A stretch of 40,624 nt of DNA from Magnetococcales bacterium HA3dbin3 (GTDB taxonomy: Bacteria > Pseudomonadota > Magnetococcia > Magnetococcales > DC0425bin3), in contig PEAJ01000003.1 in NCBI GenBank assembly GCA_002753495.1, forward strand, positions 1 to 40,624, in the 5' to 3' direction. The notes under the pieces are model-generated. The model was given only the letters and a program-made list of their open reading frames with translations, was not told the DNA's origin and did no database searches. Below, piece after piece: positions 7,260 through 12,305 of the stretch. The position numbers and the translations under genes were made by a program. Positions within the stretch are counted from its first letter, which is position 1, and every line of letters starts with the position of its first letter.

Positions 7260-8852
7260 ATGCCCGCACACCCGAATCACCCGGCCGCGGATGCCGCGCC
7301 GACGCAGGACGAACGCATTCTCATCCTCGATTTCGGTTCCCAGTACACGCAGCTGATTGCCCGGCGCGTGCGTGAGGCGCGTGCTTACAGCGAGATTCAC
7401 CCCTGGTTCATGGCCCCCGAGGCGGTGCGCGCCTTCAACCCGAAGGGGATCATTCTCTCCGGCGGGCATCAGTCGGTCTACGAGCTGAAGGCGCCGACTT
7501 TGCAACCGGAGGTGCTCGCCCTTGGTGTGCCGGTCCTGGGTATTTGCTACGGCATGCAGGTCCTGGCGCGGCACTTGGGTGGTGCGGTTGAGGCCTCGGG
7601 CAAGCGCGAGTACGGCCCGATGCGCGTGCGGCGACAGGGGGATCCGGGTGAGCTGTTCGGCGAATTTTTCCACGAGGAGTCTACCCCGGTGTGGATGAGT
7701 CACGGCGACCATGTGACCGAATTGCCAGCCGGGTTTCGTGTCGTCGGGGCGAGCGATAATGCACCGATCGCCGCCATGATCGATGATCAGCGCCACATCT
7801 ACGGGGTGCAGTTTCACCCGGAGGTACACCACACGCCGCGTGGAAGCTTCCTGATCGATGCCTTCGTACGCAGGGTGTGTGGGTGTCGGGGATTGTGGAC
7901 GCCTGGGCATTTCATCGCCCAGGCCATCGCCCGTGTCCGGCAGCAGGTCGGCGATGATCAGGTGCTGCTTGGGCTCTCGGGTGGAGTGGATTCGGCGGTG
8001 ACGGCGGCCCTGGTGCATCGGGCGATCGGCGACCGCCTGACCTGCGTCTTCGTCGACAACGGTCTGCTGCGTTTGAACGAAGGGGACGATGTCATGGCCA
8101 CCTTCGCCGAGCATATGGGGGTGCGGGTGATCCGGGTCGACGCCGAGGATCGCTTTCTCGAACGTCTACGCGGCATCAGCGACCCGGAACGTAAACGCAA
8201 GATCATCGGCCACACCTTCATTGATGTTTTCGAGGCCGAGGCGCGGCGTTTGCCGGCCGTGCAGTGGCTGGCGCAGGGGACGATCTATCCGGATGTCATT
8301 GAATCCGCCGGCGGCAAAACCGGTGTCGCGGCAAGCATCAAATCGCATCACAATGTCGGTGGCCTTCCCGCCGACATGGGGTTGCGCCTGCTCGAGCCCT
8401 TGCGCGAACTCTTCAAGGACGAGGTGCGTCAGGTCGGCGAGGAGCTGGGATTACCGCGGCGCATGCTCTATCGTCACCCCTTTCCCGGCCCGGGGCTTGG
8501 GGTGCGCATCCTCGGCGAGGTGCGCAAGGAGTTTGCCGACATGTTGCGCCAGGCCGACGCCATCTACATGGAGGAGCTGCACAGTTCCGGCCATTATGAT
8601 CGGACTTCGCAGGCCTTTGCCGTCTTTCTCCCGGTGCGCAGCGTCGGCGTCAAGGGGGATGGGCGCAGCTACGAATATGTCGTTGCCCTGCGCGCGGTGG
8701 AGACACAGGATTTCATGACCGCCTCCTGGTACGCGCTGCCGCAGGAGCTTCTGTCGCGCATCGCCAACCGTATCATCAACGAGGTCCCCGGCATCAACCG
8801 GGTGGTCTACGACATCACCTCCAAGCCGCCAGGGACGATTGAGTGGGAGTGA
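7260..8852 (+). CDS. guaA: GMP synthase (glutamine-hydrolysing)
   Basis: GMP synthase converts XMP to GMP using glutamine and ATP. The N-terminal class I amidotransferase domain has Cys96 in GICYGMQ and His186/Glu188 in QFHPEV. The ATP pyrophosphatase domain has the P-loop LSGGVDS (residues 239-245). The C-terminal dimerisation domain begins around the [14 protein letters not shown] segment. The length (530 aa) is normal, with a slightly longer N-terminal tail ([18 protein letters not shown]). It is the last gene of the + strand block. The next gene is convergent, and I see no clear rho-independent terminator in the 95-base gap after it. Confidence 0.96.
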
Positions 8853-8947: not shown

Positions 8948-10831
8948 TCACACCTTGGCCCTCCCACGCGTCCGTGCCTGGAGCTGGCTTCTGACTTGTG
9001 TATAAAGCCGGGCCTCCCCGTTTTCCCGGTCACGCAGGCAGACCACCAGGGCATAGTCCTCTTCGGTGGCACATAGCGGTTCACCCCACGGAAGATCGTT
9101 GCGGGTAACAACAACGAACAGCCGGTTGTTGCGCAGGAGGGATCTGCGATCAAACTGCCTGAATTGCCAGAAGTCGGCCTGCACCGTGCCCTTGCTGCGG
9201 GCCCGCTGGCCAACGGTAGCGGTTTTCAACTCGGAGATGCTCTCGTAATCGTCCTTCTCGGTGGCCTTGTTGAACATGGTGGTGACATGTTCCAGATCCG
9301 GTGCCGTCACCAGGCGAAAGTCGATGCGGGTGGCACGGTACTTGATTCGGGTTGAACGGACGATGGGCGCATAGGCCAGCCCCACGGCAATTTCCCGCGA
9401 TCGACGACGGCCACCGCTGGTAAACTCCTCTGGAATGGGAATCTCATAGAAGTGGTGACGCTTGTTCTCAATGGAGCTATCGGCGATAAGGGTCACCGCA
9501 TTTTCGAGGGAGCGGTACAGAGCCGATTCATCCACCCGGCCATAGCCGCAGACCTTTCTGAACGCCTCATCGCGGTCTATCAGGGCCTGGCTTTCCTTTG
9601 GCATGATGGCATGGGCGCAGAGCAGTGCCCGCAATAGTCTGGCGCTGGCGTCAGGATGTTCCCGCAGGATGGACGCCGCCAGGTGGGCCACCTGGGGCGC
9701 GGCCATGCTGGTTCCCGAATCGACGGCAAAAGGATGGCCCATGGCAAATTGATGATGGGTCGAGACGACTCCCAGACCCACAGCCCGATCCAACAATGCG
9801 TTGCCAACCCGCCGAGTATTGAACGCCCAGTTGCCGCCATGCGCCATCAATTCTGGCTTGATCGCCCCATCCACGGAGGGCCCGCTGCGGGTGAAAGGGG
9901 ATGGCTGATCCGGCTGGGCAATCGGGATCTCTGACGGGTCCAGCGGGTAGTGCTGGCTGTTGTAGGTTTGGTTGTGTCGAGCCAGGCTGCCTACGGTGAG
10001 GACGTTCAACGCCGGGGCCGGCTCGATCATCCGCCACGCCTTGTCCAGCAGGTAGTGCGGGTAGTTGTCCCGCCAGGCAAGTCCGTCAGGGGAATCCTCG
10101 CCGACCCTGTGGTTGCCCGCCGACACCACGAACAGCACCCCCAATTCTCTGGAAAGGGCATCCAGAGTCAAGGAAAGTCCTTTCAAATGGCCGCCCAGGT
10201 AGGGTTTGTTGGCGTCACCGAAAGAGAGATTGAAGACCCGGCAGTTGTACTCCTTCACGAAATACCGCACGGCCTTTTCGATATGTTTCTCGACAAAGCC
10301 TGTGGTGTTCTCGTTATTCTTGTCGAGAATCCTGCCACTGAACAGGCGCAGTGTGGGCACGAATAAACGGGAGCGCAGGCTGCTCTCGAAATCCCCGTAC
10401 AGGGCCAACCCGGCCACATGGGTGCCATGCCCGCTCTCATCGGCGGCAGACTCTCCAGGCAGAAAACTTTGAGCGTCCCCCACCGCCGCCCCCAACAAGG
10501 GGTGTCCCGTGGCCAGGCCGCTATCCAGGACCACGACACCGGGAGCTTGCTCGCCCGGGGCATTGACGATAGGGAACTTCTGGATATCCTGAAAGACGAC
10601 GGAGCGTTCCAAACCGAAGCTGGGTGGCAGGTCTACTGACCGCACATCCCGGTGTCTGAGAAGCTGATGAGCCTGGACAGCGTTGCACTGCACTCGGTAA
10701 AGAGTCAGGCCGGACTGTTTGGCCTGATCTTTCTTATCAATGCCTTCACGAGTCAACCACGTTTCAAACGCCTCCCATTCTTGGCCTCGTTCCCGATGAT
10801 TATCTTCCAGGGGCCACAGCTCCACATCCAA
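8948..10831 (-). CDS. ietS: IetS-like subtilisin-family serine protease, C-terminal part (frameshifted)
   Basis: This S8-family peptidase retains the full catalytic set. Numbering from the TTG at 10831, these are Asp103 in VVVLDSGLA, His135 in SGHGTHVAG, Asn240 in VVSAGNH and Ser375 in DSGTSMAAPQ. No signal peptide is seen, so it should act in the cytoplasm. The open frame has no ATG near its beginning, and the true N-terminus is in the adjoining feature at 10800-11303. Dropping one A from the 7-A run (template positions 10862-10868) joins the two into one 784-aa protein across KKQGLPESDSFLLDVELW. Together with the AAA+ ATPase gene just upstream this matches the ietAS toxin-antitoxin/defence architecture, in which IetS is the protease toxin. 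The coding state is uncertain: sequencing indel, real mutation or transcriptional slippage. Confidence 0.8.
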   Translation of the reverse strand: MDVELWPLEDNHRERGQEWEAFETWLTREGIDKKDQAKQSGLTLYRVQCNAVQAHQLLRHRDVRSVDLPPSFGLERSVVFQDIQKFPIVNAPGEQAPGVVVLDSGLATGHPLLGAAVGDAQSFLPGESAADESGHGTHVAGLALYGDFESSLRSRLFVPTLRLFSGRILDKNNENTTGFVEKHIEKAVRYFVKEYNCRVFNLSFGDANKPYLGGHLKGLSLTLDALSRELGVLFVVSAGNHRVGEDSPDGLAWRDNYPHYLLDKAWRMIEPAPALNVLTVGSLARHNQTYNSQHYPLDPSEIPIAQPDQPSPFTRSGPSVDGAIKPELMAHGGNWAFNTRRVGNALLDRAVGLGVVSTHHQFAMGHPFAVDSGTSMAAPQVAHLAASILREHPDASARLLRALLCAHAIMPKESQALIDRDEAFRKVCGYGRVDESALYRSLENAVTLIADSSIENKRHHFYEIPIPEEFTSGGRRRSREIAVGLAYAPIVRSTRIKYRATRIDFRLVTAPDLEHVTTMFNKATEKDDYESISELKTATVGQRARSKGTVQADFWQFRQFDRRSLLRNNRLFVVVTRNDLPWGEPLCATEEDYALVVCLRDRENGEARLYTQVRSQLQARTRGRAKV

Positions 10832-11303
10832 CAGGAAGGAGTCCGATTCTGGAAGGCCCTGTTTTTTTCAGCGCCCACCCTTTGCGATCCTCGGGACGCC
10901 AGTTGTCTATGCTTTGCAGGGCATAAATGACCTGCTTGTTGGTGACGTCACCCCCGCTGGCCATGGTGGCCAGTCGGGCTTCGAACTGGGCAAGGGCTGC
11001 GTCACTGGCGAAGACGACAACAACCGTCTCGTCCTCCTGGCTGACGAACTCGATTCCCGAGGAAATCTTGCGCAGGTCGTCGGGGTTGAATCCCTTCTGC
11101 ACGGAAAAGCGGAACAAGCGGCGCTCGTCAAACCCACCTACATCCCCCGCGGTTTGCTCCCTGGCCTGGGCGAGTTTTTGCTGCAATCCTCGTCCATGGC
11201 CACGAATATCTTGCGGAACAGAAAACCTTGGCGGCTGGCCCGGTCGTTTCTCATTGACCAGTGCCTCCCGTTGCAGTGGCAGATGAGGATAGGACTCAGC
11301 CAT
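10800..11303 (-). CDS. ietS: IetS-like protease, N-terminal part (frameshifted)
   Basis: This open frame encodes the 5' part of the protease: LPLQREALVNEKRPGQPPRF, then a charged helix (RGHGRGLQQKLAQAREQTAG) and an alpha/beta prodomain-like segment with DETVVVVFASDAALAQFEARL. It reads into the 7-A run at 10862-10868 as ALKKTGPSRIG and stops soon after, with its end out of frame with the protease domain. The next frame continues the expected sequence. Its ATG is 7 bases after the ietA stop, so ietA and ietS form one operon. On its own this 167-aa product has no catalytic residue. It may be the leftover of a frameshift or the 5' part of a slippage-expressed gene. Confidence 0.75.
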   Translation of the reverse strand: MAESYPHLPLQREALVNEKRPGQPPRFSVPQDIRGHGRGLQQKLAQAREQTAGDVGGFDERRLFRFSVQKGFNPDDLRKISSGIEFVSQEDETVVVVFASDAALAQFEARLATMASGGDVTNKQVIYALQSIDNWRPEDRKGWALKKTGPSRIGLLPVGCGAVAPGR

Positions 11304-11309
11304 GGGTCA

Positions 11310-12305
11310 TCAACCTCGCTTCATCCGGGCACGCCGGGCATCCTCCCGGTGGATGGCGGACTGGATGTGCCGTTCGCTCAGGAACTCCTTGCCGGCTAGA
11401 ATCATTTCTTTAGCGGCCCGGCGCAATACCCGCTCCACATCGGCTTGACTCATCCCCTTGAAGAGGGTGGCGATCTCGTTGCTCTCCACCTCGAAATTTC
11501 GTCGCAGACCGCGCAGTTTGCAGGCCAGCAGCTTCCGCAATTGCTCCAGATTGGGCGGTTCGAAAACCAGAACCTCGTCGAACCTGCGCCAAACGGCGGC
11601 ATCCAAAATGCCCTCGTGATTGGTGGCGGCGATGAGCAGGCTCCTGCCATTGTAGGTATCGAGAAGCTGTAAAAAGGCATTGACTACTCTTTTCAGCTCG
11701 CCATGATCCGCCGCATCGGCGCGTTCCTTGGCCAGGGCGTCGAACTCGTCGAACAGCGCCACCATGGGCACGGAGGCTACGAAATCCAAAACCTGACGCA
11801 AATTGGCGGCTGTCTCTCCCAGATAGGAGGAGACCACACTGTCGATACGCACGATGGCCAATGGTAGACCGAGTTCCGAGGCCAGGACTTCCGCCGTCAG
11901 GGTCTTGCCGCAGCCAGGAGGGCCGCAGAACAGGAGTCGATCCGCTGGCGCGAGACCATGACTCTTTAATACCTCTTGTCGATGGTACTCCTGGAGAACC
12001 TCGTCGATCAGGGAGCGGTTGTCATCGGAAAGAATGACATCCTCCAACCGCCGAAGGGGTTCCCTGATATACAGGAGTGGAAGGCCACGCTCTTTGTCGC
12101 TTGGAACTTGCTTGGTCAAGGAGACGAATGGTTGACTGGTAACACTTGACCGGCCGTAAAGGATTTTTTCCAGGTCGCTGGCAAGTAGGTGGTGGTGTCT
12201 CTCCCGCTCCTCTCGGATGACATCCTCGGAAGCCTTTTTGAAAGCCTCCAGGTCTCCTTCCGCGCCTGACCGAATGAGCTGTCTTAGCAAGCTGCCCGAT
12301 GCCAT
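11310..12305 (-). CDS. ietA: IetA-like AAA+ ATPase (protease partner)
   Basis: This single-domain AAA+ ATPase is 331 aa long. It has Walker A GPPGCGKT (residues 128-135), Walker B VALFDEFD (182-189), sensor 1 Asn229 in IAATNHEG and arginines WRRFD at 240-241 that suit an arginine finger. The N-terminal 110 residues are helical and charged and carry no known domain I can name. The C-terminal lid has SQADVERVLRRAAKE. The gene is followed at once by the subtilisin-like protease gene, the same order as in ietAS loci. In that family IetA is proposed to restrain or direct the IetS protease. An AGAGGG ribosome site lies 8 bases before the ATG. Catalytic residues look complete, so the ATPase should be active even if ietS is broken. 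Confidence 0.85.
   Translation of the reverse strand: MASGSLLRQLIRSGAEGDLEAFKKASEDVIREERERHHHLLASDLEKILYGRSSVTSQPFVSLTKQVPSDKERGLPLLYIREPLRRLEDVILSDDNRSLIDEVLQEYHRQEVLKSHGLAPADRLLFCGPPGCGKTLTAEVLASELGLPLAIVRIDSVVSSYLGETAANLRQVLDFVASVPMVALFDEFDALAKERADAADHGELKRVVNAFLQLLDTYNGRSLLIAATNHEGILDAAVWRRFDEVLVFEPPNLEQLRKLLACKLRGLRRNFEVESNEIATLFKGMSQADVERVLRRAAKEMILAGKEFLSERHIQSAIHREDARRARMKRG

Follow-up and report, generated by a model that had tools for sequence, protein, structure and literature searches.

An IetAS Module with an Interrupted ietS Toxin Gene in Magnetococcales Bacterium HA3dbin3, and the Mosaic Character of ietS in the Magnetococcales

Gene Content and Genomic Context of the Locus

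The analyzed window of 40,624 nucleotides corresponds to a complete contig (G000:C206) of a draft genome of Magnetococcales bacterium HA3dbin3, which comprises 2.9 Mb in 316 contigs and is 77% complete. Magnetococcales DCbin2 is among the relatives that place the host in this order. The contig opens with a run of 17 G (positions 2–18), probably an artefact of the assembly end. The part of the window considered here contains the following features:

7260–8852, plus strand: guaA, the conserved neighbour of the module; synteny with same-genus genomes stops at its stop codon
8948–10867, minus strand: second part of ietS, with the linker, a predicted ferredoxin-like module, the S8 catalytic domain and the C-terminal domain
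10800–11303, minus strand: N-terminal ORF of ietS, starting with ATG, 167 aa; the first ~146 codons are homologous to ietS and are followed by ~21 out-of-frame codons up to the stop
10862–10868, minus strand: A7 run at the frame change (T7 on the plus strand); the closest homologues, L015 and L018, have A6 at the same place
11310–12305, minus strand: ietA, encoding an AAA+ ATPase of 331 aa, the predicted antitoxin or partner; intact

IetAS consists of an AAA+ ATPase antitoxin or partner and a subtilisin-like protease toxin, and is both a toxin-antitoxin pair and an anti-phage system. In the window, the ietA stop codon (11310) is followed by the ietS start codon (ATG at 11303), both on the minus strand, with 6 nt between them. 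The product of ietA matches the PADLOC IetA profile (E 5.1e-99, positions 4–324 of 374) and Pfam AAA (E 1.1e-28), carries the Walker A (GPPGCGKT) and Walker B (VALFDEFD) motifs, and is 92% identical to IetA of G029/G037/DCbin2. The second part of ietS matches Pfam Peptidase_S8 (E 1.2e-38), and its product retains the catalytic D (VVVLDSG), H (GHGTHVAG) and S (SGTSMAAP) as well as the oxyanion N (VVSAGN).

With IetAS of Agrobacterium pTiC58 (PADLOC ietAS), the module thus shares the order of ATPase and S8 protease genes and the catalytic residues, and the PADLOC profiles match both window proteins over nearly their full length. It differs in that the toxin frame is interrupted; a single open protease frame is needed for a working IetAS module, not for descent from the family. 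The scores against the NCBIfam equivalogs of the characterized anti-phage pair (NF042956/NF042959) are below the cut-offs (118/900 and 251/510 bits), the IetS score being that of the C-terminal part of the split protease alone, and the window pair represents a divergent subfamily. SgiAT of Salmonella genomic island 1 (S026-S025) is likewise composed of an AAA+ ATPase antitoxin and a subtilisin-like toxin and resides on mobile DNA (PMC5006074). Toxicity of SgiT, the homologue on SGI1, and rescue by its ATPase SgiA were demonstrated in E. coli (PMC5006074), whereas the window toxin is a predicted one and its gene is broken.

Synteny between the window and two same-genus genomes runs up to the guaA stop codon and not beyond. 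Misbinning of the contig was ruled out, since guaA is 89% identical to that of the same-genus genome G001, and the contig therefore fits the host genome. Integration of an island that duplicated the 3′ end of guaA was also considered and rejected, as that end has no second copy in the window. In the two same-genus genomes (L107, L108), the 3′ side of guaA carries genes that we take, as read from the DNA, to be HicAB-like and HipB-like. Since ietAS, HicAB-like and HipB-like genes occupy this place in three genomes of the genus, the 3′ side of guaA looks like a spot at which toxin-antitoxin modules are gained and lost. The nearest relatives of window IetS are found in other families of the order, while those of guaA belong to its own genus, which supports a probable horizontal acquisition of the ietAS module.

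The Frame Change in ietS

The homologous ietS sequence carries on in the +1 frame after the A7 run, up to position 8948; this downstream frame is open from just past the stop at 10870 to its own stop at 8950–8948. Positions 3–147 of the PADLOC IetS profile (PDLC02198) match the N-terminal ORF (E 7.9e-32) and positions 145–788 of 795 match the second part (E 7.5e-235), with no gap between the halves. Magnetococcales homologues also align over both halves. Since a single profile spans the two ORFs and homologues align across them, they are not chance neighbours. The initial annotation had described an ietAS-type module with an intact ATPase gene and a protease that keeps all its catalytic residues, split by one base at the A7 run, and these results confirm each of these points.

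The N-terminal part of IetS contains no known Pfam domain above the cut-off. In an AlphaFold2 model of the whole protein the mean pLDDT was 48, so it was used for the outline of the N-terminal part only. For residues 1–235 of the homologue L012, two alpha/beta modules are predicted, one at residues 63–119 with low confidence and one at residues 158–226 with pLDDT mostly of 72–93. The latter has a ferredoxin-like order of elements and directly precedes the catalytic domain, a position usually taken by a prodomain in subtilases; it is probably prodomain-like. A Foldseek search returned weak ferredoxin-like matches only, none below E 0.001. By this model, the window lesion falls in the linker between the two predicted modules.

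The frame is unbroken at the site of the A run in all 15 distinct homologues, which come from Nitrosomonas, Marinobacter, Pusillimonas, Methylomonas, Methylobacter, other proteobacterial MAGs, a viral-collection contig and Magnetococcales. The run comprises six, five, four, three or two As, and seven in one homologue. The codons at the site are AAA AAA CAG (Lys-Lys-Gln) in L015 and L018, AAA AAG CAG in L012, AGA AAA CAT in L017 and AAG CAG CAA in L005, while L020 has GAA AAA AAG, an A7 run that leaves the frame intact at this site. Since the codons vary and the A7 of L020 is read in frame, the A run lacks conservation and is not tied to a frame change. The window site is a Lys-Lys pair plus one extra base. 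A viral-collection contig, L040 (IMGVR_UViG_3300025270_001884), carries an intact ietS (68% identical) together with ietA.

It had been proposed that transcriptional slippage at the A run yields a little full-length protease and so acts as a switch. The run is located exactly at the frame shift, and longer runs are known to permit transcriptional rescue: in tssM1 of Citrobacter rodentium, which is likewise interrupted at an A run, slippage was shown with 11 As, and it was also shown in a Yersinia tssM (PMC4256274), whereas the window has seven As without conservation. For E. coli RNA polymerase, slippage becomes detectable from 8 As or 7 Ts up, a threshold that may not be that of the Magnetococcales polymerase, and bases are lost less often than they are gained (PMC6260861); the full-length frame in the window would need a net change of −1 or +2 bases. 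A large share of bacterial genomes show evidence of selection against slippage at a run length of nine (PMC1088944). Because the run is not conserved, the homologues read through in frame and seven As lie below the E. coli threshold, the slippage switch is not supported and is considered highly improbable. The search suggested by the initial annotation, for ietS homologues with a conserved A run, yielded none: the run is 2–7 As long and in frame in the 15 compared.

The two halves could also be made separately, as an N-terminal regulator and a prodomain-protease acting together, or be joined by a shift of the ribosome. The position of the shift, within a linker that joins two predicted modules, would suit separate proteins, and with a TTG at 10831 as its start codon, the second part would begin right at the prodomain-like module. 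Neither this TTG nor the next GTG is, however, preceded by a Shine-Dalgarno-like sequence, as judged by eye, whereas the native ATG at 11303 has GAGGT, and no homologue among those compared is split at this site. Ribosomal frameshifting by −1 was rejected, as it enters the wrong (third) frame and meets a stop at 10755. The chance that functional halves or a ribosomal shift account for the gene structure therefore seems very slight.

Probable Recent Inactivation or Sequence Error

The most likely reading, held with moderate confidence, is that the module beside guaA is a horizontally acquired IetAS pair and that a one-base insertion has recently inactivated its ietS toxin. As inferred from sgiAT and ietAS, the free protease would harm the cell, and the ATPase would restrain it until a trigger appears. 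An A6 run located between the N-terminal and prodomain-like modules would have gained one base, so that translation would end soon after ~146 native codons; no active protease would be produced and ietA would be left as an orphan antitoxin. The insertion would be recent, because both halves are under purifying selection and there is no second lesion. The dN/dS ratio between the window and near homologues is 0.08–0.25 in every computable block, whether before or after the break, and the lineage-specific changes in the catalytic block comprise 27 synonymous and 10 nonsynonymous ones, which indicates that the lesion is either recent or not real.

The main rival, to which a substantial minority chance is given, is an error of sequencing or assembly: ietS would be intact in the organism, with the additional A being a base-calling or consensus artefact in the homopolymer. 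The difference is a single base in a homopolymer within a single draft assembly of 316 contigs, and the absence of decay, with no further lesion and purifying selection in both halves, is expected from an error too. On the other hand, comparison of ~163 kb of conserved coding sequence with same-genus genomes revealed a single further frame change that is credible, at an A9 run in an IS1-like transposase gene, and 13 A/T runs of 7–8 nt in conserved genes stay in frame. The small number of frame errors in conserved genes bounds the error rate of the draft, yet is still compatible with one error at ietS. No second intact ietS copy was found in the genome (draft 77% complete). Of the three explanations initially offered, recent inactivation or sequence error thus fits the data, and the slippage switch does not, given the in-frame homologues and the short A7 run.

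In the search for frame changes, a high frameshift rate of the draft was considered and dismissed, as the first candidates mostly looked like antisense or start-extension artefacts on inspection; one further case (L148) lies on an apparent antisense frame. The IS1-like transposase gene of the same genome (L166:17438-18073), with A9 at the frame change, is a better candidate than ietS for slippage or a programmed shift.

Independent lesions, at differing sites, were seen in at least six other copies of ietS, five of which have an intact ietA beside them:

P. aeruginosa pF076: 1-nt deletion, otherwise 99.96% identical to the intact pPALO532; ietA intact
pF061: IS30 insertion; ietA intact
A. salinitolerans: frameshift splitting the gene; ietA intact
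R. leguminosarum/ruizarguesonis plasmids: shared frameshift; ietA intact
pNGR234a: IS21 insertion; ietA not found in the stretch read
G021: frameshift; ietA intact

Repeated independent breakage of ietS, with ietA usually kept, was noted at loci L167, L168, L169, L170, L171, L172, L176 and L020. The excess of lesions in ietS over ietA is not significant by gene length alone, and some of the broken copies may be sequencing errors themselves. The pattern is consistent with cells that tolerate losing the toxin and keep the antitoxin.

Mosaic Structure of ietS

Sliding identity among the window, L012, L015, L017 and L018 revealed that the nearest relative changes sharply along ietS. The N-terminal segment of the window gene is 74–92% identical to L017 and 55–68% to L015, whereas the catalytic block is 86–96% identical to L015 and 60–73% to L017. 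Conversely, L018 has an N-terminal segment of the L015 type and a catalytic block of the L017 type. The switch of ancestry lies near 10916 in the window and near 10724 in L018. Segments change their nearest relative at conserved anchors, located at approximately 10915–10806, 9726–9427 and 9132–8948. The first of them, delimited by sliding identity and site-by-site alignment, is the following:

10806–10915, minus strand: conserved anchor between segments of different ancestry, holding the A7 run

The tree of the N-terminal block rejects the groupings window+L015 (p-AU 3.5e-7) and L017+L018 (2.2e-8), and that of the catalytic block rejects window+L017 (4.3e-5) and L015+L018 (4.5e-4); these values are descriptive, because the groups were picked after the identity plot was seen. 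Pairs of ietS outside the Magnetococcales display homogeneous identity. Assembly chimeras are a caveat here; against them, the pattern recurs in several independent assemblies, and most window segments are 4–26% diverged from their nearest relatives. Taken together, the alignments indicate that Magnetococcales ietS is a recombinational mosaic. A short, highly variable stretch of ietS precedes the catalytic serine block (9825–9727), and only L012 is similar there.

Swapping of specificity segments occurs in other defence proteins. A comparable, tentative proposal for IetS, possible but rather unlikely as a whole, is that the toxin is modular and that Magnetococcales genomes swap its N-terminal and catalytic segments through recombination at conserved anchors, perhaps altering the trigger or the target that is cut. 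The lesion at the A run would then be a by-product of such an exchange or the silencing of a mismatched combination.

Overall, the module is an ordinary member of a known toxin-antitoxin and defence family, and the slippage switch, which would have been a new regulatory mechanism, is struck off. The window case adds to the repeated breakage observed in the IetS toxin gene. The mechanism of the IetAS defence pair has been described as unknown (PMC9958689). The mosaic is the part worth following, as it offers a lead on how this little-understood pair diversifies, namely which segment of IetS may sense the trigger and which may pick the target.
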